Positions 45,039-61,550 of a stretch of DNA of 64,000 nucleotides are shown here, one piece after another. Position 1 is the first letter of the stretch. Each line of letters opens with the position of its first letter. Where the stretch lies: contig NZ_JAXIVS010000007.1 in NCBI RefSeq assembly GCF_034259325.1, positions 310,001-374,000 of the forward strand, given 5' to 3'. The DNA is from Hyalangium ruber (GTDB lineage: Bacteria > Myxococcota > Myxococcia > Myxococcales > Myxococcaceae). The notes beneath the pieces are model-generated. The model was not told the DNA's origin and searched no databases. It worked only from the letters and a program-made list of their open reading frames with translations. Both the position numbers and the translations under genes were made by a program.

Positions 45039-47182
<2,144 letters not shown>

Positions 47183-47186
<4 letters not shown>

Positions 47187-50100
47187 CCCGTGCTCCTCTC
47201 CAGTAGGACGACCGGGAAGCTCGCGAGGAGCGGTGAGAGGGGCAGCACCACGCCGCCCCGCCTTCCGCGCTCTGCTCGGACCTCGCGCCCGGTGAACACG
47301 TCCCGGAACATCATGCCTCCATAGGCCTCCGGAAGGTCTACGAAAGTGCCTTCATACGCGCGGGCCAGTCCCCCCCCGGACTCCAGCGCCGAGAGCGTGA
47401 AGCGCGGCACCACGGTGAGAACCACCGAATCCTCGTGCTCGCGGGCGAAGGCCACGGCCGCCTCGGAGCGCTTGCCCACCAGGTGCAGCACCCGGTAGCC
47501 GCCCGTGCGGAAGAGGGCCGCCTGACGCTGGCGCAGCCGCAGGCCCTGGGTGAGCGTGTAGAGCTTCACCCGCCCATCGGTCATGTCCGCCGTCAGCCGG
47601 GCGCACAGGGCCGCCGGGTCGCTGGCGGCCTCACGGTCCAGCTCCTCCAGCAGGCGCATGCGCAGGGTGTAGTCCACCGGCCGCCGGTTGTCCGGGTCCA
47701 CCAGGGACAGGTCCCACAAGTCGCAGCCCTGGTAGGTGTCCACCACGCCGGGCGAGGCCAGCTTGAGCACCAGCTGCCCCAGGGCGTTGAGCTGTCCGGC
47801 CCGCTCGATGCGGCGCTTGAACTGGCGCACGTCCTCCAGGAAGACGTTGCTGCCCTTGCGGTCGAAGCACGCGTCCACGAAGCGCGCCACCGCCGCGTCG
47901 TAGTCGGCGTCCGGGTTGGTCCACGCGGTGCGGACCTTGGCCTCCTTGATGGCCTTGCCCATGTACTCGCGCACCCGGCGCTGGAAGTCCTCGTGCTCCG
48001 CCTCGGACAGCGAGTCCCCCATGGGCCAGGCGCCCACCACCGTCTGGTAGAAGAGGTACTCGTCGTTGTGCGTGGGCGCGGGGCCGCCGGGCAGCTCCGC
48101 CACGTGGCGGGCGTTGAGCCGCGACCAGCGGTGGACACGCTGCCGCCACTCGTCGGTCAGCTCGGTGAGCACGTTGAGCCGTGCCCGCACGTCCTCGCTG
48201 CGCTTGGTGTCGTGGGTGCTGCTGGTGAGCAGGCTCGCGGGCCAGTGCTCGGCGCGCTCCTGGTTGCGCTGGTGGAACAGCGAGGCGGGGATGCCGAAGT
48301 GCTCCGGCTCTCCGCCCACCTCGTTGAGCGAGACGAGGCGGTTGTAGATGTAGAAGGCCGTGTCCTCCAGCCCCTTGGCCATCACCGGCCCCGTCACCTG
48401 CTGCAGCTTCATGGCGAAGCGCAGCATCACCGCCCGCTCCTGCTCGTTCAGGTGCTCCGGGTAGCGCCGCAGGAGGATGTCGCGCAGGAAGTCGTAGATG
48501 CTGGCGTTGGTGGTGGCATTGCGCTCCTTGGCCCGGGCGATCGTCCACTCGATGTACTGCACGTCTCGCTCGTCCAGCTCCGGGCGCCAGCCATCCACGT
48601 AGGTGCGGTAGACGGGGAACAGGGCGATGAACTCGATGAGCGCCCGGCGCAGGCTGTTGAGCGTGAAGTCGCGCGTGCGCCGGTTCATCTCCGAGATGCG
48701 GTTGAGCTCATGGGCCAGCATGTTGAGCTCGCTGGACATGGCCGTGCGCAGGATGAGCAGCTTCTTCTGGTGGACGAGCTCCTCGAAGTCCACCACCTCG
48801 TTGATGAAGCGGTGGTACGTCTCCGTCATCGCCTTCTCGGCTTCCGGCTGGACGAAGAGCCCGCCCAACGCGTTGGCGAAGCGGTAGCCCGTGGTGCCAT
48901 GCACCGCCCAGGAGTCGGGGATGCGCTCCTTGCCACCCTGGATCTTCTCCACCACCACGAAGAGCGCCTTGCGCAGCGGCGAGCTGGGATCGGCGGCCAC
49001 CTCCTCGCGCCACCGGGTCACCAGGCGCTGCTCCACCACGGGCCAGCGGACCTCCTCGGCGCCCTGCTCCTTCTGGAGGCGCGCGCGGGCCTGCTCCACG
49101 AAGAAGCGCTCCTGGAGCCGCAGGAAGTACGCCGTGGGGTCGAACAGTCCGTCCGGGTGATCGATGCGCAGGCCATTGATGCTGCCGTCGCGCAGCCAGT
49201 CGAAGATGCGCGCGTGCGCCTCGTCGAAGACCTCGTCGTCCTCCACGCGGATGGCGGCCAGCCCGTTGATGTCGAAGAAGCGCCGGTAGTTGATCTCCTC
49301 GCCCGCCACGCGCCAGTGCGCCAGCCGGTAGCTGCACGAGGCCAGCAGGGAGTCCAGCCGGTTGAACGAGCGCGGATCGCCCTTCGTGCCGTTGAAGGCC
49401 TGCACGTTGGCGGCCACGAAGGCGGCCACCTCGGGGCTGGCCTCCACCACCGCGGCCAGGCGGCGCTTGATGACCTCCTTCTCACGGTTGCGCTCGATGA
49501 CCTTGGCGCGCTCCGTCTCGGTGCGCACCGGCAGGTGCTCGATGGCGGTGAGGACGGACTGCAGCTCGATGAGGTGCGCGTTCGTGGCGCCCAGCTTCGA
49601 CTCCAGGCCGGCGAGCTCATGGCGCAGGACGGTGGCGTACTGGCGTGGCGCCAGGGGCAGCTGGTGCTCGTAGTACTGGATGAAGAAGGCCCCGTCCTTG
49701 TAGGCCAGCTTCAGCTCCCCGTTCTCCAGGACGATGCCGTACTGGTCGCCGAGGATGGGCAGCAGCACCTTGTCGCGCAGCTCCGACTTCACCGGCGCCC
49801 AGTCGATGTCGAAGTATTTCGCGTAGACCGAGGACGGGCCGTTCTCCAGCACGTCGAACCACAAGGGGTTGAAGCGCTCGATGCCCATGTGGTTGGGCAC
49901 CACGTCCAGCACCTGCCCCAGGCCGTGCTCGCGCAAGGTGCGGCACAGCGCCGCGTGGTCCTCGGGCGAGCCCACCTCGGGGTTGAGCTGCTGGTGGTCC
50001 ACGCAGTCATACCCGTGGGTGCTGCCGGGCGAGGCCTTCAGGTAGGGCGAGGAGTACAGCTCGCTCACGCCCAGCTTCGCCAGGTAGGGCACCATGGCCC

Positions 50101-50281
50101 GGGCCGCCTGGAAGTTGAACCCCTGGTGCAGTTGCACCCGGTACGTGGACAGCGGCGTCTCCTTCGCGCGCGCCAACAACTCCTCCCGCACGCGCTCGTA
50201 CAGCCGGTCCGCCAGGGACTTCTCTCGCTCCGCCGTCTGAGACTCGGCGGTAGCACCCTCTTCCGATCCTTGGAGAAGCAT
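47183..50281 (-). CDS. treY: Malto-oligosyltrehalose synthase
   Basis: The product has about 1032 residues. Family hallmarks are TYRVQLHQGFNFQAA near the N-terminus, SPGSTHGYDCVDH, VVPNHMGI, catalytic Asp in GLRIDHPDGL, VEKIQGGKERIP and LTSSTHDTKRSEDVR. It converts the reducing-end alpha-1,4 bond of a maltodextrin to an alpha,alpha-1,1 bond. The start is uncertain: GTG 50353 lies in the U-run of the SWIB terminator, so ATG 50281 is preferred. That still leaves about 40 residues of charged extension before the domain. TreZ, needed to release trehalose, is not in the window. Confidence 0.93.
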
Positions 50282-50346
50282 CGCCGCAGAGAGGTAGGTC
50301 TTCTGGAGCACATTGACCAGTGCGCAGGTGCCCAACCGCCCACCTG

Positions 50347-50383
50347 AAAACACAAAGGGCCCGCCGGTGTCTGGCGAGCCCTT
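50347..50383 (-). terminator. Intrinsic terminator of the SWIB gene
   Basis: On the minus strand AAGGGC and GCC pair with GGC and GCCCTT (outer 6 bp, inner 3 bp, one 2x2 internal mismatch, 7-nt loop). TTTGTGTTTT follows. It starts 35 nt after the SWIB stop. It separates that gene from treY and argues against a treY start at 50353. Confidence 0.75.
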
Positions 50384-50417: not shown

Positions 50418-50744
50418 CTACTTCTTCAGGTGCTTGAAGGCCTGGGCGACCTCGGTCATCTTGATCTGCTTCTTGTTGCCGTAGACGGCCTTGAGCTTGT
50501 CATCCAGGTTGATGAGCTGGCCCTGGTTGAGCGAGTTCTTCTTGATGTAGTCCCAGATGTTCTTGATGACGGCGGTGCGCGGCAGCGGCTTGCTCCCAAC
50601 AACCGCGGCGAGCTCGGCAGACGGGGTGAACTCCGCCATGAACGCGGCGTTCGGCTTACGCTTGGCGCCAGCAGCGGCCTTCTTCGCAGGAGCCTTCTTC
50701 GCAGCGGTGGTCGTCTTCTTCGCAGCAGCCTTCTTAGCGGCCAT
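50418..50744 (-). CDS. SWIB/MDM2-domain protein with histone-H1-like N-terminus
   Basis: The product has 108 residues. The first 30 are Lys/Ala repeats (AAKKAAAKKTTTAAKKAPAK) like the tails of histone H1 and Chlamydia Hc proteins. The rest is a SWIB domain (FTPSAELAAVVGSKPLPRTA through QGQLINLDDKLKAVYG). It probably binds DNA or RNA polymerase and affects chromosome compaction or transcription; the bacterial function is not established. ATG 50744 follows GGAGGAG. A long intergenic region upstream carries a hairpin and 33-bp tandem repeats, and an intrinsic terminator follows, so it is monocistronic. Confidence 0.92.
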   Translation of the reverse strand: MAAKKAAAKKTTTAAKKAPAKKAAAGAKRKPNAAFMAEFTPSAELAAVVGSKPLPRTAVIKNIWDYIKKNSLNQGQLINLDDKLKAVYGNKKQIKMTEVAQAFKHLKK

Positions 50745-50993: not shown

Positions 50994-51977
50994 GTGGACA
51001 TGAACGTCCTCATCACCGGTGGAAACGGCTTCCTGGGTACCTGGCTCGCACGCGCGTTGGTCGCGCGGGGCGACAGCGTGGCGTGCCTGCTGAGGCCCTC
51101 GAGTGACGTCTCCGGCCTCGCGGGGCTGCCCTACACCCGCGTGGACGGGGACGTGACGGACAGCGCCTCGCTGGAGCGCGCCGTCCAGGGGCGAGACGTG
51201 GTGTTCCACCTGGCCGGCATCCGCCGCGCCGCCACGCGCGAGGAGTTCATGCGCGTCAACGCCGAGGGCACCCGCAACCTGTGCGAGGCCCTGGTGCGCG
51301 CCGGGGGCAAGGCCCGCCTGGTGCTCTGCGGCTCACTGGCCGCCTGTGGCCCCTCCTCCCTCCAGCGCCCCCACGTGGAGGAGGACCCCTTCCACCCCGC
51401 CGAGTGGTACGGCGAGAGCAAGGGCGAGGCCGAGCGCATCACCCTGTCCTACGCGGACCGGCTGCCCGTCACCGTGGCCCGCCCGCCCCGAATCCTCGGG
51501 CCCGGGGACCACGAGAACCTCACCTTCTTCAAGCTGGTGAAGAAGGGCATCCGCCTGAAGATTGGCGGCGGCCCCCGGCCCCTGACGCTGGTGGACGTGG
51601 AGGATGTGGTGGACCTGCTGCTGCTCTTGGCCGACCGGAAGGAGGCCCTCGGACAGGCCTTCTTCGTGGCGGGGGACCGGCCCCTCACCCTGGAGGAGCT
51701 GCAGGACATCGGCGCCCAGACGTTGGGTGTCCACCCTCGGACGGTGTACCTGCCCCCCGCGGTCCTCAAGGGCCTGGCGGCCACCGCGGACGTGATTACC
51801 CAGGCCACGGGCCGGAAACTGCCGCTGAACCGCAAGCTGGCGCGCCAGTTGCTGGCCCCCGCGTGGACATGCTCGGGGGCCAAGGCCGAGCGGCTGCTGG
51901 GCTTCCGGCCACGGAGAGACGTCGTGGAATCCATCCGCCGCAGTGCCCACTGGTACCAGGAGCAGGGCTGGTTGTAG
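50994..51977 (+). CDS. NAD-dependent epimerase/dehydratase (extended SDR)
   Basis: The product has 327 residues with a Rossmann motif MNVLITGGNGFLGTWLARAL and the catalytic YxxxK as YGESKGEAER (preceded by GSLAACGPSS). It resembles 3-beta-hydroxysteroid dehydrogenase-like and hopanoid-associated epimerases that act on lipid or sugar-nucleotide substrates. GTG 50994 and ATG 51000 are both possible. It is on the same strand as the elb-like cluster with an 87-nt gap, and the C-terminal gene of that cluster is a second enzyme of this family, so a lipid substrate is plausible. Confidence 0.87.
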   Translation: MDMNVLITGGNGFLGTWLARALVARGDSVACLLRPSSDVSGLAGLPYTRVDGDVTDSASLERAVQGRDVVFHLAGIRRAATREEFMRVNAEGTRNLCEALVRAGGKARLVLCGSLAACGPSSLQRPHVEEDPFHPAEWYGESKGEAERITLSYADRLPVTVARPPRILGPGDHENLTFFKLVKKGIRLKIGGGPRPLTLVDVEDVVDLLLLLADRKEALGQAFFVAGDRPLTLEELQDIGAQTLGVHPRTVYLPPAVLKGLAATADVITQATGRKLPLNRKLARQLLAPAWTCSGAKAERLLGFRPRRDVVESIRRSAHWYQEQGWL

Positions 51978-52025
51978 GCCCGACCCCTGGGGTTCAGAGG
52001 CGAATTCCCAGCCTTCTTGCGCCGT

Positions 52026-52049
52026 TGACACACCTGCACAGGAGTGTCA
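52026..52049 (+). promoter_or_regulatory. Near-perfect 24-bp palindrome before the elb-like operon
   Basis: Outer arms TGACAC (52026-52031) and GTGTCA (52044-52049) and inner arms CCTG (52033-52036) and CAGG (52039-52042) are all complementary. Only one position per 11-nt arm mismatches, and the centre is 2 nt. TTGACA overlaps the left arm. It ends 15 nt before the HAD gene ATG, so it is probably a repressor or activator site for the operon. Confidence 0.6.
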
Positions 52050-52064
52050 GGAAGCCGCCAGCCC

Positions 52065-52730
52065 ATGCCCGCCAAAGCTGCCTTCTACGATGTCGACGGG
52101 ACGCTCGTGAAGACGAACATCGTCCACGTCTACGCCTATTACGCGATGAACCGTGGCTCGCTCCTCGGCATGGCGGGGCGTTCGCTCACCACGGCCGCCA
52201 GCCTGCCGCTGTTCGGAGCCCTGGACGTCCTCAACCGCAAGGTCTTCAACGAGTTCTTCTACCGCTACTACCAGGGGCTCACCGAGGACCGACTGCTCAC
52301 CGTCGCCGAGGACATGTTCGAGGACGTGCTCAAGCCCGCCCTCTATGACCAGTCCAAGGACCTCATCGCCGAGGCGCGCCGCTCCGGCTGCCGCATCGTC
52401 CTGGTCACCGGAGCCCTGGACTTCACCATGCGCCCGCTCGCCCGCTACCTCGGGGCGGACGAGCTCATCGCCAACAAGATGCAGTTCGTGGGGGGCGTGG
52501 CCACCGGCAAGGTGATTCCCCCCATCATCGAAGGCGCCTACAAGGCCAACGCCATCCGCGACTACTGCGCCCGCGAGGGCCTGTCGCTGGCCCACTGCCA
52601 TGGCTACTCGGACAGCGCCTCGGACTACGCCATGCTGGCCATCGTCGGCCGGCCTACCGCCGTCAACCCGGACATGCGACTGCGCTCCCTGGCGCGCGCC
52701 TACAACTGGCCCATCCTCGATCTGAAGTAA
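52065..52730 (+). CDS. HAD-IB family phosphatase of the ether-lipid-like cluster
   Basis: The product has 221 residues. HAD motif I is FYDVDGTLVKT (two Asp), motif II is in LVTGALDF, and motifs III/IV are in the conserved Lys region and GYSDSASDYAML. Its HAD-IB (SerB-like) architecture suggests a phosphomonoesterase acting on small lipids or amino-acid phosphates. ATG 52065 has AGGAAG upstream. It is first of four closely spaced genes (12-nt gap, 28-nt gap, 4-nt overlap). In order and type it corresponds to the first gene of the Myxococcus elbB-elbE set as I recall it; that naming is tentative. Confidence 0.88.
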   Translation: MPAKAAFYDVDGTLVKTNIVHVYAYYAMNRGSLLGMAGRSLTTAASLPLFGALDVLNRKVFNEFFYRYYQGLTEDRLLTVAEDMFEDVLKPALYDQSKDLIAEARRSGCRIVLVTGALDFTMRPLARYLGADELIANKMQFVGGVATGKVIPPIIEGAYKANAIRDYCAREGLSLAHCHGYSDSASDYAMLAIVGRPTAVNPDMRLRSLARAYNWPILDLK

Positions 52731-52742
52731 CCCGACTCCGCT

Positions 52743-54356
52743 ATGCGCCCCATCAAGACGCTCCAGAAGCTGTACGACGAGGAAAGTCAGGTCGTCATCA
52801 CCGAGAAGGGCAGCCCTCCGCGAGCCCTCTTCTCGGGCGAGAACTTCCTGCTCGAGGACCTGCCCGTCGGCACGCGGGTCATCTTCCCCCGCCCGCCCAT
52901 GGCCGGCGTCCCGAACGTCAAGGCCGCCATCCGCTGGGCCATCAACCACCCGGAGGGCATGGACCCGCTGCACGCCCTGCTGCGCCCGGGCATGAAGCTG
53001 ACGTGCGTCATCGACGACATCTCCGTGCCGCTGCCGCCCATGGTCACCCCGGACGTGCGGCAGACCATCCTCGAGGTGGTGCTGGAGCTGGCCGCCGACA
53101 GTGGCGTGGATGACATCCACCTGGTCATCGCCAACGCGCTGCACCGCCGCATGACCGAGGCGGAGATGCGGCGCATGGTGGGCCAGAAGATCCACGACGC
53201 CTACTACCCGGACCGCTACTACAACCACGACGCGGAAGACCCGGACGGCATCATCGAGCTGGAGCGCACCACCCACAACGAGGTGGTGGCCCTCAACCGC
53301 CGCGTGGCCGAGAGCGACCTCATCGTCTACGTGAACGTGAACTTCGTGCCGATGAACGGCGGCCACAAGTCCATGGGCACCGGCGTGACGAACTACGCCA
53401 GCCTCCGGGCGCACCACAACCCGAAGACCATCCGGGACTCCGACAGCTACATGGAGCCCAAGTCGAGCGACCTGTACCGGAAGAACACGCGCATCGGCAC
53501 GGTCATCGACAAGCACCTGAAGGTCTTCCACATCGAGACGACGCTGAACAACCGCATGTTCGGCGCGCCCCTGGAGTTCCTCGGCAAGAAGGAGGAGGAC
53601 TACACCGAGGGCGACCGGCTCAAGCTGCAGGCGATGCGCTTTGCCCTCAAGCGCACCCCGCGCGCGGCGGCCCGGAAGATCTTCAACTCGGTGCCGGCCC
53701 CCTATGACGTGACGGGGGTGTTCGCCGGGGCCACCGAGCCGACGCACGCCAAGACGCTGGAGATGAGCTGGAAGCAGTACTCCGTGCCGGTGGAGGGGCA
53801 GAGCGACATCGTCATCTTCCCCATCCCCTTCGTCTCGCCCTACAGCGTCAACTCCATCCTCAACCCGCTGCTGTTGCAGGTGATGGGGCTGGGCTACTTC
53901 TTCAACCTCAACCGCGGCATTCCGCTGGTGAAGAAGGGCGGCGTGCTGATTCTGCTGCACCCGGCGTACGACGAGTTCGACCCGGTGCAGCACCCCAGCT
54001 ACATCGAGTTCTTCAACCGGCTGCTGCCGGAGACGCGCGACTCGATGAAGCTGGAGCACAAGTACGAGCGCGAGTTCGCCGAGAACCCCAGCTACGTCCA
54101 CCTGTACCGCAAGGGCAATGCCTACCACGGCGTCCACCCCTTCTATATGTGGTACTGGGGCGAGAACGGCCGCCAGCACGTGGGCAAGGTCATCGTCGCC
54201 GGGGCGGAGAACAACCACGTCCCCGGGCTGCTCGGCTGGGACCGCACCGACACCCTCACCGAGGCCATCGAAGAGGCCCGCGGCTTCATGGGCCGCTCGG
54301 CCACCATCAGCCTGCTGCGCATCGCGCCCACCCTGCTCGCGGACGTGAAGCTCTAA
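52743..54356 (+). CDS. LarA-like (lactate racemase N-domain) protein
   Basis: The product has 537 residues. The N-terminal half resembles the nickel-pincer enzyme LarA: CVIDDISVPLPPM corresponds to the DD-S-P motif, IANALHRRMTEAEM to the HRPxTxxE motif, and NGGHKSMGTG to the Lys-containing loop. It is longer than LarA (about 420 residues), with a distinct C-terminal half (HPAYDEFDPVQHPSYIEFF). It may be an isomerase or racemase using the LarA cofactor, or a relative that lost it. It lies 12 nt after the HAD gene and 28 nt before the ElbD-like gene, so it belongs to this lipid pathway by context. Substrate unknown. Confidence 0.85.
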   Translation: MRPIKTLQKLYDEESQVVITEKGSPPRALFSGENFLLEDLPVGTRVIFPRPPMAGVPNVKAAIRWAINHPEGMDPLHALLRPGMKLTCVIDDISVPLPPMVTPDVRQTILEVVLELAADSGVDDIHLVIANALHRRMTEAEMRRMVGQKIHDAYYPDRYYNHDAEDPDGIIELERTTHNEVVALNRRVAESDLIVYVNVNFVPMNGGHKSMGTGVTNYASLRAHHNPKTIRDSDSYMEPKSSDLYRKNTRIGTVIDKHLKVFHIETTLNNRMFGAPLEFLGKKEEDYTEGDRLKLQAMRFALKRTPRAAARKIFNSVPAPYDVTGVFAGATEPTHAKTLEMSWKQYSVPVEGQSDIVIFPIPFVSPYSVNSILNPLLLQVMGLGYFFNLNRGIPLVKKGGVLILLHPAYDEFDPVQHPSYIEFFNRLLPETRDSMKLEHKYEREFAENPSYVHLYRKGNAYHGVHPFYMWYWGENGRQHVGKVIVAGAENNHVPGLLGWDRTDTLTEAIEEARGFMGRSATISLLRIAPTLLADVKL

Positions 54357-54384
54357 GCCACGCCCACAGCGCCCCGAGTCGCCC

Positions 54385-57300
54385 ATGAGTCAGCTGCCCG
54401 AATTGAACGTCTCCCAGGTCTTCACCGGCAAGCGCCTGCTGTTCGCCGGCTCCACCGGCTTCGTGGGCAAGGTGACGCTGTCCATGCTCCTGACGCGCTA
54501 CGGCCAGGAGCTCGACAAGCTCTATGTGCTGGTGCGCAAGGGCAGCGCCGCGTCCGCCGAGCGCCGCTTCTTCGACAAGGTCGCCATCAGCGAGCCCTTC
54601 CAGCCGCTGCGCGATGCGTACGGCGATGAGGGCGCGCTCGAGTTCATCCGCGCCAAGTGCGAGATCCTCGACGGCGACATCACCGACCCGAACATGGGGC
54701 TCACCGACGCGCAGGTGGAGGCGCTCACCGGCAAGGTGGCCGCCATCGTCAACTGCGCGGGCCTGGTGTCCTTCAACCCCTCGCTGGAAGTCGGCCTCAA
54801 CGTCAACACCCACGGCGTGAAGTACGTGGTGGAGCTGGCGCTGAAGTGGAACGCGCCGCTCATCCACATGTCCACCGCCTTCGTGGCGGGCAACCGCAGC
54901 GGCCTCGTCTTCGAGGACGAGGAGGTGCTGGGCTACTTCCCCAAGAAGGACGAGCTGGACGGGCGCGACTTCAACCTGGAGCAGGAGCTCAAGGACGCCG
55001 AGCGCATCGTCGCGCGGCTGCGCGAGCAGGCCGATGACAAGGCCCTCACCTCCACGTTCCGCAAGAAGGCGCTGGACCGGCTCGAGGAGGAAGGCCGCGA
55101 CGTCAACGACGAGAAGACGCTGCGGCTGGCGGTGGGCCGCGAGCGCAAGCTGTGGCTCACCGGCGAGCTGGTGCGCGCCGGCATGGAGCGCGCCCTGCAC
55201 TGGGGCTGGCCCAACACGTACACGTACACCAAGAGCCTCGGCGAGCAGGTGATGGCCGCCACGCCGGGCCTGCGCTACTCCATCGTGCGCCCCTCCATCG
55301 TGGAGAGCGCGATGCACTTCCCCTTCCCCGGGTGGAACGAGGGCTTCACCACCTCGGCGCCGCTGGCGTTCGCCGGCCTCAAGGGGCAGCGCGGCATCCC
55401 CGCCGGCCACAGCACCATCCTGGACATCATCCCCGTGGACAAGGTGGCTGGGGCCACCATCGGCATCACCGCCCACGCCCTCACGGTGGAGGAGCGGCGC
55501 GTCTACCACCTGGCCTCCGGCGACGAGAACCCGTTCTACGCCAGCCGCTCGGTGGAGCTGGTGGGCCTCTACCGCCGCCGCTACTACCGGCACAAGGAGG
55601 GCGGCAACGCGCTGATGAACGCGGTGCGCTCGCGCGTGGAGCCGCAGCCCGTCTCGCGTCAGGCCTTCGAGCGCTTCAGCGCCCCGGCCTTCGTCAAGGG
55701 CGCCCAGTTGCTCAAGAAGGTCATCGACGAGGTGCGGCCTACGTGGGGCGCCCCCGGCGTGCAGGCCCTGCTGGATCGGGCCAAGACGAAGCTGGATGAC
55801 GTGGAGGAGCAGGCCTCCAGCCTGGCCATGCTCATCGAGCTGTTCCTGCCCTTCATCTGGGAGAACCGCTACGTCTTCCGCTGCGACAACACGCGCTCGG
55901 TCTACACGCGGATGGCGCACTCGGACCGCGTGAAGATTCCGTGGGACCCCGAGCACATCGACTGGCGGGCCTACTGGCTGGAGACGCACCTGCCCGGCCT
56001 GGAGAAGTGGGTGTTCCCCGGCCTGGAGGAGGAGACGCAGAAGCGCACCGTCATCCCCGCGCACCGCGACTTGCTGGAGCTGTTCGAGGCCAGCGTGCAT
56101 GCGTGGCGGCACCGGGTGGCCTTCCGCATGTTCTCCGACGAGCGGGAGGAGCGCTTCACCTACGGCGAGGCGCACCGCTACGCCTCCCGCGTGGGCAGCG
56201 CCCTGCTGCGCTCCGGCGTGAAGCACGGAGACCGGGTGCTGCTGGTGTCGGAGAACCGGCCCGAGTGGGCCATCTCCTACTTCGGCATCCTGCGCGCGGG
56301 CGCCACCGTGGTGCCGGTGGACCCGGCGCTCACCGAGGCGGAGGTGGTCAACATCTCCCGCCGCGCCGAGGCCAAGGCGCTGCTCATCTCCGAGCAGGCC
56401 TCCGAGGAGTTCCCCGGCCTCATCACCGCGCTCCAGGGCGGCGAGAAGCCTCCGGTCGTCATGAGCCTCGCCGAGGCCATGGCGGGAGACCCCGCCTTCC
56501 CGGACCGCATCGGCAAGGTGCGCAAGACGGCCGCCGCGGATGACGTGGCCAGCCTCATCTTCACCTCGGGCACCACGGGCAACCCCAAGGGCGTCATGCT
56601 CACCCACCGCAACTTCGCCTCGCTGGTGGCGAAGCTGGCCGGCGCCTTCAACATCGGCGTGGGCGATGGGCTGGTGTCCGTGCTCCCGCTGCACCACACC
56701 TTCGAGTTCTCCGCCGGCTTCCTCACCCCGTTCTCGCGCGGCGCGGAGATTACGTACATCGACGAGCTCACCTCGGACCGGCTGGGTGACGTGTTCGAGA
56801 CGGGCCGCGTAACGGCCATGGTGGGCGTGCCGGCGCTGTGGCAGCTCCTGCACCGCAAGATTACCCAGGAGATGGCCAGCCGCCCGCCGGTGGTGGAGCA
56901 GGCCCTCAAGGCGCTGATGGCCTCGCACGGAGAGCTGCGCAACCGCAGCTCGGTGAACCTGGGCAAGCTCCTGTTCTGGCCGGTCCACCGCAAGTTCGGC
57001 GGCAAGGTGAAGTTCCTGGTGTCGGGCGGCTCGGCGCTGCCGGACGAGGTCCACAAGGCGTTCCACGCCCTGGGCTTCAACATCACCGAGGGCTATGGCC
57101 TCACCGAGGCGGCCCCCGTGCTCGCCGTGGCCGAGCCCACCAACAAGCGCCAGCCGGGCACCGTGGGCAAGCCCCTGCCGGGCATCGAGATCCGCATCGA
57201 CAGCCCCGACAACGAGGGCATCGGCGAGGTGCTCGCCAAGGGCCCCAACATCATGGCCGGCTACTTCGGGGACCGCGAGTCCACCGAGGCCGTGCTCAAG

Positions 57301-58791
57301 GAGGGCTGGCTGCACACCGGCGACCTCGGGCGGCTGGATGCCGAGGGGCGCCTGTACCTGGTGGGCCGCAAGAAGGATGTGATCATCGACGCCAACGGGA
57401 AGAACGTCTACCCGGACGAGCTCGAGGATCTCTACGGCATCCACACGCATATCAAGGAGCTGTCCATCGTCGGCCTGCCGGACGAGGGCGGCGGCGAGAA
57501 GGTCGCCTGCCTCTGCGTGCCCGACTACAAGGAGCGCCCCCGCGAGGAGGTGCGCCGCGAGCTGGAGGAGCACTTCAAGAACGTCAGCGCCGACATGCCC
57601 TTCTACCGCCGGGTGAAGGTGCTGCGCTTCTGGGACGGGGAGCTGCCCCGCACCTCCACGCGCAAGGTGAAGCGCAAGCTGGTGGTGGAGGAGCTCAAGC
57701 GCCTGGAGCGCCTGGCCTCCAGCACCGAGAAGGCCCGCGAGAAGGTCACCGCCACCGGCGGCGTGAGCGACTGGCTCTACCCCCTCATCGCCGAGGTGGT
57801 GAACCGGCCCCTCGCGGACGTGCGCCCCGAGGCCCGCCTCTCGGGAGACCTGGGCTTCGACTCGCTCATGCTCACCGAGCTGTCGGTGGCCCTGGAACAG
57901 GCCGGCGTGCCGCTGCCCGCGGTGAATGACTTGACGCAGGTCAACACGGTGGACGACCTGCGCAAGCTCATCGTCGCCTCCGGTCGCAGGCCGGCGGCCG
58001 AGGCGCGCGCCAAGGAGATCTCCGAGGACAACAAGCGCTCCGAGGAGATGGAGATCCCCGTGCCGGACCTGGTGGCCAACCTGGGCCGGCAGCTGCTCAC
58101 CTTCGGGCAGAAGATGCTCTACGGCGGCGCGTTCGACGTGAAGGTGACGGGCAAGCCCTTCGTGCCGCAGAACCGCAACTTCCTCGTCATCGCCAACCAC
58201 GCCAGCCACCTGGACGCGGGCCTCATCCGCACCGTGCTCGAGGAGCAGGGCCAGAAGCTGGTGGCGCTGGCGGCGCGCGACTACTTCTTCGACACGGCGC
58301 TCAAGCGCGCCTACTTCGAGAACTTCACCGACCTCATCCCCATGGACCGGCACGGCAGCCTGCGCGAGTCGCTGCGGCTGGCGGGCGAGTCGCTGCGCAT
58401 GGGCTACAACCTGCTCATCTTCCCCGAGGGCACCCGCTCGGTGACGGGCGAGCTGCTCGAGTTCAAGCCGACGCTGGGCTACCTGGCGCTCACCTATGAG
58501 GTGGACGTGCTGCCGCTCTACCTCAAGGGCACCTTCGAGGCGCTGCCCAAGGGCACCATGTTCCCGAAGTCCAAGGAGCTCGAGGTCCACATCGGGCCGG
58601 TGCTGAAGTACTCGGACCTCCGCGCCAAGACGCAGGGCATGGCGCGCTCGGAGAGCTACCGCTACGCCACGCGGCTGGCGGAGGAGGCCATCAAGGCGCT
58701 GCGGGCCGGCCGGGTGCTCAACCTGGACGCCGCGGCCACCACGGAGGAGCAGCGGCGCGCGCTGGGCTCCACGGGAGGGCAGGACGCGTGA
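54385..58791 (+). CDS. elbD: ElbD-like multidomain enzyme: FAR, AMP ligase, ACP, acyltransferase
   Basis: The product has 1468 residues with four enzyme modules. A fatty acyl reductase (about 12-400) has GSTGFVGK at 22 and YTYTKS near 278. An AMP-binding acyl ligase (about 570-1070) has TSGTTGNPKG near 727. An ACP (about 1110-1195) carries phosphopantetheine Ser in DLGFDSL near 1159. A PlsC-type acyltransferase (about 1230-1430) has NHASHLD near 1270 and FPEGTRS near 1345. This order matches ElbD of Myxococcus xanthus, a multifunctional enzyme shown to be involved in bacterial ether-lipid synthesis. All key motifs look intact. Ether lipids are developmental markers in myxobacteria, so expression in fruiting is likely but not visible here. 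Confidence 0.92.
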   Translation: MSQLPELNVSQVFTGKRLLFAGSTGFVGKVTLSMLLTRYGQELDKLYVLVRKGSAASAERRFFDKVAISEPFQPLRDAYGDEGALEFIRAKCEILDGDITDPNMGLTDAQVEALTGKVAAIVNCAGLVSFNPSLEVGLNVNTHGVKYVVELALKWNAPLIHMSTAFVAGNRSGLVFEDEEVLGYFPKKDELDGRDFNLEQELKDAERIVARLREQADDKALTSTFRKKALDRLEEEGRDVNDEKTLRLAVGRERKLWLTGELVRAGMERALHWGWPNTYTYTKSLGEQVMAATPGLRYSIVRPSIVESAMHFPFPGWNEGFTTSAPLAFAGLKGQRGIPAGHSTILDIIPVDKVAGATIGITAHALTVEERRVYHLASGDENPFYASRSVELVGLYRRRYYRHKEGGNALMNAVRSRVEPQPVSRQAFERFSAPAFVKGAQLLKKVIDEVRPTWGAPGVQALLDRAKTKLDDVEEQASSLAMLIELFLPFIWENRYVFRCDNTRSVYTRMAHSDRVKIPWDPEHIDWRAYWLETHLPGLEKWVFPGLEEETQKRTVIPAHRDLLELFEASVHAWRHRVAFRMFSDEREERFTYGEAHRYASRVGSALLRSGVKHGDRVLLVSENRPEWAISYFGILRAGATVVPVDPALTEAEVVNISRRAEAKALLISEQASEEFPGLITALQGGEKPPVVMSLAEAMAGDPAFPDRIGKVRKTAAADDVASLIFTSGTTGNPKGVMLTHRNFASLVAKLAGAFNIGVGDGLVSVLPLHHTFEFSAGFLTPFSRGAEITYIDELTSDRLGDVFETGRVTAMVGVPALWQLLHRKITQEMASRPPVVEQALKALMASHGELRNRSSVNLGKLLFWPVHRKFGGKVKFLVSGGSALPDEVHKAFHALGFNITEGYGLTEAAPVLAVAEPTNKRQPGTVGKPLPGIEIRIDSPDNEGIGEVLAKGPNIMAGYFGDRESTEAVLKEGWLHTGDLGRLDAEGRLYLVGRKKDVIIDANGKNVYPDELEDLYGIHTHIKELSIVGLPDEGGGEKVACLCVPDYKERPREEVRRELEEHFKNVSADMPFYRRVKVLRFWDGELPRTSTRKVKRKLVVEELKRLERLASSTEKAREKVTATGGVSDWLYPLIAEVVNRPLADVRPEARLSGDLGFDSLMLTELSVALEQAGVPLPAVNDLTQVNTVDDLRKLIVASGRRPAAEARAKEISEDNKRSEEMEIPVPDLVANLGRQLLTFGQKMLYGGAFDVKVTGKPFVPQNRNFLVIANHASHLDAGLIRTVLEEQGQKLVALAARDYFFDTALKRAYFENFTDLIPMDRHGSLRESLRLAGESLRMGYNLLIFPEGTRSVTGELLEFKPTLGYLALTYEVDVLPLYLKGTFEALPKGTMFPKSKELEVHIGPVLKYSDLRAKTQGMARSESYRYATRLAEEAIKALRAGRVLNLDAAATTEEQRRALGSTGGQDA

Positions 58792-59816
58792 AGCTGCTCG
58801 TGACGGGAGGCACCGGTTTCCTGGGCATCCACCTGGTGCCCAAGCTGCTCGAGGCGGGCCACGAGGTGCGCCTCATCGGCCGCACCCCGCCCACGGCCTC
58901 CGTGCTGGCCAAGGCGGAGTTCGTCCAGGCGGACCTGAAGAACCGCGAGGCCGTCAAGCGCGCCCTGGAGGGCGTCGAGGCCGTCTACCACCTGGCGGGG
59001 CTCGTCTCCTTCCAGGACAAGGACGCGCGGAAGATGTACGAGCTGCACGTGGACGCCACGCGCGAGCTGGTACGCGACGTGCGCGAGGCCGGGGTGAAGC
59101 GCTTCATCCTCGCCTCCACCTCCGGCACCATCGCCGTGTCCAAGGAGGAGCGCGTCGGCACGGAGGAGGACGACTACCCCATCACCGTGGTGGGCCGCTG
59201 GCCGTACTACCTCTCGAAGATCTACGAGGAGAAGCTCACCCTGGAGTACTGCCGCAAGCACTCCATCCCCCTGGTGGTGCTCAACCCCAGCCTGCTCATG
59301 GGGCCCGGGGATGACCGGCTCTCCTCCACCTGGACGGTGGTGAAGTTCCTCAACAAGGAGATCCCCGCCATGCCCGGCGGCGGCATGTCCTTCGTGGACG
59401 TGCGCGACGCGGCGGACGCCTTCGTCAACGCCCTCACGCGCGGCGAGCTGGGCGGCCGCCACCTCATGGGCGTGAACATGTCCATGCCGGACTTCTTCGA
59501 CCGGCTGGCACGGCTCACCGGCGTGAGCGCCCCCCGGCTCCACCTGCCCTCCCAGGCCAACGTGCTGGGGGCCAAGCTGCTGGAGCGCTGGGCGAAGCTG
59601 CGCGGCACCAAGCCCCTGCTGGATCCGCAGGAGGTGGATGTCGGCGAGCACTTCTTCTACCTGGACGCCTCGAAGGCGGAGCGCGAGCTGGGCTTCCGCG
59701 CCCGGGACCCGCAGGAGACGCTGCACGACACGGTGCAGTACATCTTCACGAAGATGCCTCCCCAGAACCTTCCGGGCACCAAGGGTCGCCTCTCGGAGCT
59801 GCGCGAGGGAACCTGA
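58788..59816 (+). CDS. NAD-dependent epimerase/dehydrogenase of the ether-lipid-like cluster
   Basis: The product has 342 residues of the extended SDR family: MKLLVTGGTGFLGIHLVPKL, VYHLAGLVSF, and catalytic YYLSKIYEEK (YxxxK). The closest-looking group is hopanoid-associated/steroid dehydrogenase-like epimerases. GTG 58788 overlaps the ElbD stop by 4 nt, so it is coupled and probably reduces or oxidises a lipid intermediate made by ElbD. It is the last gene of the operon. Confidence 0.9.
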   Translation: MKLLVTGGTGFLGIHLVPKLLEAGHEVRLIGRTPPTASVLAKAEFVQADLKNREAVKRALEGVEAVYHLAGLVSFQDKDARKMYELHVDATRELVRDVREAGVKRFILASTSGTIAVSKEERVGTEEDDYPITVVGRWPYYLSKIYEEKLTLEYCRKHSIPLVVLNPSLLMGPGDDRLSSTWTVVKFLNKEIPAMPGGGMSFVDVRDAADAFVNALTRGELGGRHLMGVNMSMPDFFDRLARLTGVSAPRLHLPSQANVLGAKLLERWAKLRGTKPLLDPQEVDVGEHFFYLDASKAERELGFRARDPQETLHDTVQYIFTKMPPQNLPGTKGRLSELREGT

Positions 59817-59930: not shown

Positions 59931-61550
59931 ATGAAGGATCCGAAGTTCACAGATATCTCGACGGCCGCCACGCCCAGACGCACGAGCGCCCAGGTGTCGG
60001 GCCCAGTCCCGGCGCTGACCCTCATCTCCCACCCCACCCCCCAGCGCGCGGGGGAGCGGCTGATCCTCGAGGCGCTCGCCAGCGGCGGCACCGTGGCGCT
60101 CTCGCGCATCTCCCCGGACTTCGTCCGCCCGGGCAGCACCCTGGCCATGCCCCTGGCCGATACCTTCCTCAGCCGAAAGCCCCTGCTCTTCGACCGCGCG
60201 GCCAACGGCGGCGTCCGGCTGACGGTGGAGGAAGGCGGCACGCTGGTCCAGATCGGTGAGACGCCGTTCACCGGCACCCGGGAGTTCGGACCCGAAGAGC
60301 TGAACTCGGGCGTACCCCTCGTGCTCGCCGAGCGCGTCGTCCTGCTGCTCCATCTGGTGGTCTCCCCCGAGGCGCACACCCCCAACGATCTGGGCATGGT
60401 GGGCTCCGGCGCGGGCACCCGCCGCGTGCGCGAGGACATCGCGCGCGTGTCCGACCTGAACGTGCCCGTGCTCATCCGGGGCGAGACAGGCTCGGGCAAG
60501 GAGCTCGTCGCGCGGGCCATCCACCAGCACAGCCCGCGCCGGTCCGCGCCCTTCATCAGCGTCAACCTGGGCGCCCTGCCCAAGGAGCTCGCCGCCGCCG
60601 AGCTCTTCGGCGCGCGCAAGGGCGCCTACACGGGCGCCACCCAGGACCGGGAGGGTTTCTTCCGCGCCGCCCACGGCGGCACCCTCTTCCTCGATGAGGT
60701 GGGCGAGGCCCCTCCCGAGGTCCAGGTGCTGCTGCTGCGCGTGCTGGAGACGGGAGAGGTGTTCCCGGTGGGCGGCCACGCGCCCGTGCCCGTCGACGTG
60801 CGGCTCATCACCGCCACGGATGCCGACCTCGAGGAGCGCATCCGCCAGGATCTCTTCAAGGCCCCGCTGCTGCACCGGCTGGCGGGCTTCGAGATCCAGG
60901 TGCCTCCGCTGCGCGAGCGCCGCGAGGACATCGGCGTGCTCTTCTACCACTTCGCTCGCCAGGAGCTGGAAGCCCTGGGCGAGGCCCATCGCCTCGAGGC
61001 GGCGGCATCCCAGGCCGACCCGTGGCTCCCCACCGCGCTGGCGGCCCGGCTGGTGCGCTACGCGTGGCCCGGCAACATCCGCCAGCTCCGCAACCTGACC
61101 CGGCAGATCGTCATCGGCAGCCGCGGCCAGCCCCGGCTCCAGGCCAACCCCCGCCTCGAGCAGGAGCTGGATGCCTCCGAACCGGTGATGCCCTCGCGTC
61201 AGGCCGCGGCCCTCGCGCCCGCCGCGAAGGAGCCGCCCGCGCCCCCGGAGCCCGCAACGCCCCGCCGCAAGCCCTCCGAGGTGACGGACCAGGAGCTGCT
61301 GCAGGCCCTGCGCTCCACCTCGTGGGACCTCAAGGCCGCCGCGGAGCGCCTGGGCATCACCCGCCCCTCGCTCTACATGCTCATCGACAAGAGCCCCAGC
61401 CTCCGCACGGCGGGGGATTTGAGCACCGAGGAGATCACCCGCTGCTTCCAGGAGTGCCGCGGAGACCTGGACGCCATGGTGCAGCGCCTCGAGGTCTCCA
61501 AGCGCGGGCTCCAGCGCCGCATCCGGGAGCTGGGCCTGGGCAACGACTGA
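59931..61550 (+). CDS. FHA-type sigma-54-dependent transcriptional activator
   Basis: The product has 539 residues. The N-terminal region (about 30-145) looks like a degenerate FHA domain. A central AAA+ domain follows (about 155-395) with Walker A GETGSGKE, the sigma-54 contact loop GAYTGA (231-236, usually GAFTGA) and GTLFLDEVGE. After a Pro/Ala linker come two helix-turn-helix stretches, one Fis-like (LKAAAERLGITRPSLYMLID) and another at the C-terminus (DAMVQRLEVSKRGLQRRIREL). FHA-bearing activators are common in myxobacterial Ser/Thr kinase signalling. It follows the elb-like operon and may control it, but gap and palindrome suggest its own promoter. Confidence 0.92.
   Translation: MKDPKFTDISTAATPRRTSAQVSGPVPALTLISHPTPQRAGERLILEALASGGTVALSRISPDFVRPGSTLAMPLADTFLSRKPLLFDRAANGGVRLTVEEGGTLVQIGETPFTGTREFGPEELNSGVPLVLAERVVLLLHLVVSPEAHTPNDLGMVGSGAGTRRVREDIARVSDLNVPVLIRGETGSGKELVARAIHQHSPRRSAPFISVNLGALPKELAAAELFGARKGAYTGATQDREGFFRAAHGGTLFLDEVGEAPPEVQVLLLRVLETGEVFPVGGHAPVPVDVRLITATDADLEERIRQDLFKAPLLHRLAGFEIQVPPLRERREDIGVLFYHFARQELEALGEAHRLEAAASQADPWLPTALAARLVRYAWPGNIRQLRNLTRQIVIGSRGQPRLQANPRLEQELDASEPVMPSRQAAALAPAAKEPPAPPEPATPRRKPSEVTDQELLQALRSTSWDLKAAAERLGITRPSLYMLIDKSPSLRTAGDLSTEEITRCFQECRGDLDAMVQRLEVSKRGLQRRIRELGLGND

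Follow-up and report, generated by a model that had tools for sequence, protein, structure and literature searches.

A LarA-fold protein of putative nickel-pincer type in the elb ether-lipid operon of Hyalangium ruber

The elb locus

The window, a stretch of 64,000 nucleotides from a 10.8 Mb assembly in 43 contigs (G000; listed as 100% complete with 4.5% contamination), contains five co-directional plus-strand genes spanning 50994–59816, all of which proved to be open reading frames in an ORF check (Table 1). From elbA to elbD the intergenic distances are 66, 12, and 28 bp, and elbD and elbE overlap by 4 bp; given this spacing, the genes are read as an operon. The five genes, their order and the domains of ElbD match those of elbA–elbE in Myxococcus xanthus, as described in the portion of a 2022 review covered in this study (PMC9131029). 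The Elb-like ether-lipid cluster named in a previous sequence-only reading of this DNA is thereby recognized as the published system, and its treatment as a new system was rejected.

Pfam assigns a HAD domain to ElbB, which also exceeds the cut-off of its NCBIfam model, in agreement with the phosphatase previously proposed. ElbD contains all four domains expected of the FAR–ligase–ACP–acyltransferase postulated from sequence: NAD_binding_4 (residues 22–357), AMP-binding (567–961), PP-binding (1129–1194), and Acyltransferase (1252–1380). ElbA and ElbE both match the Pfam Epimerase and 3Beta_HSD families. An earlier designation of these flanking proteins as epimerases holds at the level of the Pfam match; yet 'Epimerase' is only the Pfam name and no NCBIfam model reached its cut-off among the matches listed (25 of 28 for ElbE), making a reductase function as likely. 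The motifs that we take to denote HAD, SDR, reductase, ligase, ACP, and acyltransferase function look intact in the predicted proteins. For elbA, translation more likely begins at an in-frame ATG at 51000 than at 50994. Scans of the locus did not rise above chance for either promoters (0 found, 0.3 expected) or terminators (4 found, 4.5 expected).

Table 1. Genes of the elb locus and aligned active-site positions of ElbC (window coordinates; residue counts refer to 124 distinct homologs)
Feature	Position	Strand	Evidence
elbA-like extended SDR, 327 aa	50994-51977	+	Pfam Epimerase E 2.4e-32; GGNGFLG, YGESK motifs
elbB-like HAD-IB phosphatase, 228 aa	52044-52730	+	NCBIfam TIGR01490 118 bits (cut-off 98.3); DVDGT, SDSASD motifs
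elbC, LarA-fold protein of predicted NPN type, 537 aa	52743-54356	+	NF052592 828.7 bits; Z 39.2 to 9q3k
ElbC Asp92, LarA Asp72 position	53016-53018	+	D in 124/124
ElbC Val95, LarA Arg75 position, Arg for NPN phosphate and substrate carboxylate lost	53025-53027	+	L/V/M/I in 124/124
ElbC His134, LarA His108 position, catalytic	53142-53144	+	H in 124/124
ElbC Asn200, LarA His174 position, second catalytic His lost	53340-53342	+	N in 123/124, T in one
ElbC Lys209, LarA Lys184 position, covalent pincer lysine	53367-53369	+	K in 124/124
ElbC His225, LarA His200 position, nickel ligand	53415-53417	+	H in 124/124
ElbC Tyr367, LarASp Tyr307 position	53841-53843	+	Y in 124/124
ElbC His465, LarASp His401 position, candidate second acid/base	54135-54137	+	H in 124/124
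elbD-like FAR–acyl ligase–ACP–acyltransferase, 1468 aa	54385-58791	+	Pfam domains; YTYTK, TSGTTG, GFDSL, HASHLD, FPEGT motifs
elbE-like extended SDR, 342 aa	58788-59816	+	Pfam Epimerase E 4.2e-36; GGTGFLG, YYLSK motifs

On the same strand, 114 bp 3' of elbE, lies a sigma-54 activator gene (59931–61550), which could control the operon or just be its neighbor. The minus strand immediately upstream of elbA, read divergently from that gene, encodes a small protein (50418–50744) with a SWIB domain and an N-terminal stretch rich in Ala and Lys; its start is likely the ATG at 50744. An isoamylase-type and an alpha-amylase-family gene, overlapping by 4 bp, occupy 45039–50353 on the minus strand; we take these to be likely GlgX and TreY.

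Fold and active site of ElbC

ElbC contains a Lar_N domain (Pfam E-value 4e-33) and scores above the curated whole-protein cut-off of 740 bits for NCBIfam NF052592 (LarAH14/15/16). An AlphaFold model, built on an alignment of 19 sequences and with a mean pLDDT of 87.1, was compared with known structures using VIA-align. It aligns to LarASp (9q3k) with an rmsd of 2.3 over 453 residues, and the Z scores for 9q3j, LarAIp, and LarALp are 36.1, 31.4, and 29.8, respectively. Eleven entries titled Lar or malate racemase span Z scores of 28.2–39.2, 4nar scores 21.5, and the next unrelated fold 6.5; matches below Z 7 (methyltransferases, PGK) were rejected as background. As modeled, ElbC is a full-length LarA-fold protein, and its previous description as LarA-type is borne out by domain, family, and fold. 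Among the best 80 of 578 loci from a public genome scan, it is up to 90% identical to Corallococcus and Myxococcus records. NF052592 is named as a hydroxyacid isomerase family; neither an experiment supporting this name nor a connection of the family with lipids was encountered.

Residue equivalences were derived from a HMMER alignment to solved LarAs. Conservation was counted on 142 ElbC-like sequences, of which five with less than 45% identity were set apart; removing the window's own sequence and repeats from the remaining 137 left 124 distinct homologs. ElbC shares with the lactate racemase LarA (5huq) both the fold and the equivalents of Asp72, His108, Lys184, and His200, but His174 and Arg75 are lost. 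The invariance of the pincer lysine and nickel histidine lends sequence support to the nickel-pincer cofactor (NPN) chemistry implied by the earlier reading. The C-terminal domain alignment of ElbC to LarA is too weak to place an equivalent of Lys298. In LarAIp, Arg75 binds the substrate carboxylate, according to the part of PMC12393405 covered. Since this Arg and the second catalytic His are both gone, ElbC is probably no ordinary hydroxy-acid racemase, and the loss of the carboxylate-holding Arg argues for a substrate that is not an acid.

LarASp, a single-His LarA homolog of Streptococcus plurextorum (9q3k), and LarABw are likewise described in PMC12393405 (9q3k, 9q2u, 9q3j). As far as that account extends, they resemble ElbC in fold (Z 39.2 and 36.1), in the pincer Lys and nickel His, in having one catalytic His with Asn at the position of the second, and at the positions of Tyr307 and His401, residues that adjoin the bound ligand in the LarASp structure. 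They differ in that identity to ElbC is only 22–26%, that Lys occupies the Arg75 position, which is hydrophobic in ElbC, and that His306 is replaced by Pro366 (Pro in 124 of 124 distinct homologs by residue counting on the alignment). Their genes have sugar-metabolism neighbors, whereas ElbC has ElbD beside it.

In four more distant LarA-like relatives (L054:8191–9678, L055:8465–9949, L056:8173–9606, and L057:8816–10195; 26–32% identical to ElbC), the residues equivalent to Lys209 (pincer), His225 (nickel ligand), and His134 (first catalytic His) are all missing, and three C-terminal histidines are retained. Their stretches contain no further elb gene, and three of the four are in genomes that also have a true ElbC. 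These are apparently cofactor-less LarA proteins, as judged by their residues.

Co-occurrence of ElbC and ElbD

In a sample of 146 genomes from the phylum, ElbC and ElbD have an identical distribution: 99 genomes carry both and 47 carry neither. The 99 genomes comprise 96 with ElbC over the cut-off and three with fragments (G026, G131, and G144; 476–562 bits). Twelve genomes whose NF052592 matches were all weak (343 bits or less) were excluded from the ElbC count, and a match to the ligase part only of ElbD in G007 (286 bits) was left out of the ElbD count. The pair is distributed over 41 of 79 genera, and family f2 includes both genomes that have it and genomes that lack it; the phylum counts are not independent, given that 65 of the 146 genomes belong to one family.

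From the public genome scan, the best 80 of 578 confirmed ElbC loci were taken, to which all counts in this paragraph refer; the family is larger than this set. The titles of the records name myxobacterial groups, 'Deltaproteobacteria', 'Proteobacteria', or Acidobacteriota. On the upstream side of ElbC, ElbB is present in 61 of the 64 loci with at least 3 kb of sequence there, and ElbD is no more than 8 kb downstream in 54 of the 67 loci with at least 3 kb downstream. These frequencies show that the grouping is not due to chance; the Fisher tests on locus neighbors ignore phylogeny. ElbE was then found in 43 of the 45 loci with ElbD near and at least 8 kb following. At 20 loci, no ElbD was seen within 8 kb or the contig ends before that distance. 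Of the 20 genomes concerned, 19 carry a match to ElbD at another site, in some cases a partial one, and one (G187) has no ElbD match anywhere. Ten proteins neighboring ElbC at seven loci without adjacent ElbD revealed no common theme: they include PilZ, SDR, M24 peptidase, NHL, methyltransferase, phosphoesterase, and AAA/DUF4143 proteins, and three have no match.

Within the operon, ElbC is nearer to the window protein than are ElbD and ElbE in all 53 distinct complete clusters (54 before removal of one repeated locus), with medians of 63, 50, and 49%, respectively. ElbD appears as two tblastn pieces in loci L036 and L040, and two separate ElbD-like matches are present in each of G023, G040, G044, and G055, which hints that ElbD may be split, or its architecture shuffled, in deep-branching members of the phylum.

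Supply of the nickel-pincer cofactor

Myxococcota belong to the bacterial taxa in which LarA homologs are most prevalent, according to the part of a survey covered here (PMC11770544). In the H. ruber genome, larC (C4:644324–644812) adjoins larB (C4:645053–645670), both as full open reading frames, and larE is located away from them (C5:134060–134836). ElbC is the single Lar_N protein of this genome. The sequence-only reading had named absent cofactor genes together with loss of the pincer Lys and His as evidence against its proposal, and had suggested a check for larB, larC, and larE; all three genes are present and both residues are retained. ElbC, LarB, LarC, and LarE occur together in 65 of 65 sampled genomes of the family. 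In 61 of these 65 there is only one Lar_N match, so that for most of the sampled genomes no second user of the cofactor pathway is apparent.

LarC is encoded in 98 of the 99 ElbC genomes of the phylum sample; among Acidobacteriota with ElbC, 29 of 31 genomes have it. In the exception within the phylum sample, G115, larC and a true larB are missing and larE is present; given that larB and larC are adjacent in many sampled genomes, a single assembly gap could account for this. A Fisher test that ignores phylogeny compared the presence of LarC in 95 of 96 ElbC genomes over the cut-off with that in 32 of 50 others. LarC is also found in 29 of the 47 phylum genomes that lack ElbC, and so is not a specific marker of ElbC; 15 of these 29 have no Lar_N match at an E-value of 0.001. 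The larC genomes with neither ElbC nor a Lar_N match include G043, G096, G117, G134, G135, G060, G018, and G020, and the 15 may be explained by an as yet unrecognized enzyme that uses the nickel-pincer cofactor, by a pathway left orphaned, or by gaps in the assemblies. Outside the family of H. ruber, many ElbC genomes carry two or three Lar_N proteins, and the additional ones could be cofactor clients.

Ether lipids and AGPS

The H. ruber genome encodes a Lipid_desat protein (PF10520; C6:194239–194754), a family that we take to be CarF/TMEM189. No AGPS was found among its three PF02913 proteins (L146–L148), which most resemble enzymes of the glycolate oxidase or D-2-hydroxyglutarate dehydrogenase type. 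As a positive control, the same model detects AGPS in G050, a genome of the same family (138 bits; E-value 5.4e-166 to peroxisomal AGPS), where the gene adjoins FAR-acyltransferase and SDR genes. A comparable arrangement is described for the MXAN_1676–1674 operon of M. xanthus, in which the AGPS homolog MXAN_1676 accompanies FAR-acyltransferase and SDR genes (PMC9131029, in part). AGPS, the enzyme of the mammalian route, is a flavoprotein unrelated to ElbC and represents an alternative route to alkyl ethers in the same bacteria. Whereas M. xanthus carries this homolog, AGPS seems absent from the H. ruber assembly. The elb genes would then have to form the ether themselves, in keeping with the same source, where losing AGPS has little consequence for M. 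xanthus.

Role of ElbC

In M. xanthus, ElbD is the principal enzyme behind alkyl and vinyl ether lipids, most of which depend on it, and aldehyde was reported in the wild type and not in elbD mutants; insertions in elbA are without effect, and elbE matters (PMC9131029, in the sections covered). The same review gives ElbC as of 'unknown function' and treats the route by which a fatty acid becomes an alkyl ether as unknown. According to that review, an elbB insertion lowers ether lipids less than does loss of elbD, is partly rescued by elbD alone, and had its effect attributed to polarity; it presumably affects elbC too. ElbC may accordingly be helpful and not essential, as the elbB insertion is milder than elbD loss and elbD alone gives partial rescue.

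With the cofactor residues kept, the cofactor genes present, and no other visible user in the genome, nickel chemistry is probably a hidden step of ether-lipid synthesis. It is very likely that ElbC is a holo-NPN enzyme, and likely that it acts in the ElbD pathway; the combined reading, that the locus is the elb operon with ElbC as an NPN enzyme dedicated to that pathway, is favored here with moderate confidence. The cofactor would be held on Lys209, with nickel on His225, and His134, probably together with His465 in place of the lost second His, would provide the acid/base. A lipid intermediate derived from glycerol or DHAP is the natural candidate substrate, given an operon of a phosphatase, the acyl- or aldehyde-making ElbD, and SDRs. 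ElbC may shift a hydride at C2 of such a non-carboxylate intermediate, supplied by ElbD, ElbB, and ElbE and exemplified by a 1-O-alkyl (or acyl) glycerol (phosphate), and hydride transfer would set its oxidation state or stereochemistry en route to the alkyl ether. Hydride chemistry on the glycerol backbone is put forward only tentatively, and we hold it as rather doubtful.

The characterized LarA enzymes act on 2-hydroxy acids (PMC7583248 and PMC11770544, in the parts covered), and NF052592 bears the name of a hydroxyacid isomerase. ElbC could then be an ordinary alpha-hydroxy-acid racemase or epimerase, for instance of 2-hydroxy fatty acids or glycerate, that is merely co-expressed with ether-lipid genes. 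This appears unlikely: the Arg that binds the carboxylate in LarAIp is hydrophobic in 124 of 124 distinct ElbC sequences, Asn takes the place of the second catalytic His in 123 of these, and the single-His relative LarASp showed no racemization of lactate (PMC12393405, in the portion covered); strict co-occurrence with ElbD would also be left unexplained. The same loss of Arg fits a non-acid substrate, and with it the stereochemical step on a glycerol or dihydroxyacetone intermediate suggested by the sequence-only reading. Here, ElbC would invert a glycerol ether at C2, converting 3-O-alkyl into 1-O-alkyl glycerol or acting likewise on the phosphates. LarA chemistry is itself a C2 inversion through a ketone, and the active site of LarASp, with which ElbC shares the Tyr307 and His401 positions, was tentatively modeled with a phosphorylated aldose (PMC12393405). 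A plain reversible racemase would, however, need a second catalytic His for the opposite face, there is no sign of a wrong-handed glycerol intermediate in the pathway, and DHAP-derived intermediates reduced by an SDR would require no inversion; we regard this step as improbable. A structural or regulatory function for ElbC, as a LarA-fold subunit devoid of NPN, is suggested by the seeming existence of cofactor-less relatives (L054–L057), but the cofactor Lys and His are invariant in ElbC and larB, larC, and larE co-occur with it, so that such a role has very little probability.

Returning to a holo-NPN ElbC within the ElbD pathway, it is tempting to speculate that it makes the ether bond by borrowing a hydride, as an AGPS-independent ether synthase, a proposal to which we give scant credence. 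The ElbD reductase would release a fatty aldehyde that forms a hemiacetal with glycerol (phosphate); NPN would take the hydride from glycerol C2 and deliver it to the oxocarbenium at C1' of the chain, yielding 1-O-alkyl-DHA(P) in one redox-neutral step, and ElbE would then reduce this product. Such a mechanism fits the elbD-dependent aldehyde (PMC9131029, in part), the single catalytic His, the lack of a carboxylate Arg, and the lack of an AGPS among the PF02913 candidates of this genome.

Implications

The elb operon was already known; what is new is the assignment, from sequence, of ElbC to the NPN-type LarA superfamily together with its cofactor genes. No published link between LarA-type enzymes and ether lipids was found in a literature search whose coverage excluded the founding 2014 elb paper, and the main text of the LarA-homolog survey (PMC11770544), in the part covered, makes no mention of 'lipid'. 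The elb operon has been proposed to act in branched tetraether (brGDGT) synthesis of Acidobacteriota (PMC10087280, in part), and an NPN-type ElbC would bear on those Acidobacteriota that have the operon. Hydride borrowing, if true, would be the first NPN reaction beyond racemization or epimerization, as far as the surveyed papers tell. A nickel cofactor enzyme that shares the distribution of ElbD over 99 genomes would identify a missing participant in ether-bond formation. If this holds, NPN chemistry would extend from 2-hydroxy acids to lipids, and the ether lipids and plasmalogens of these aerobic bacteria would be predicted to depend on nickel.
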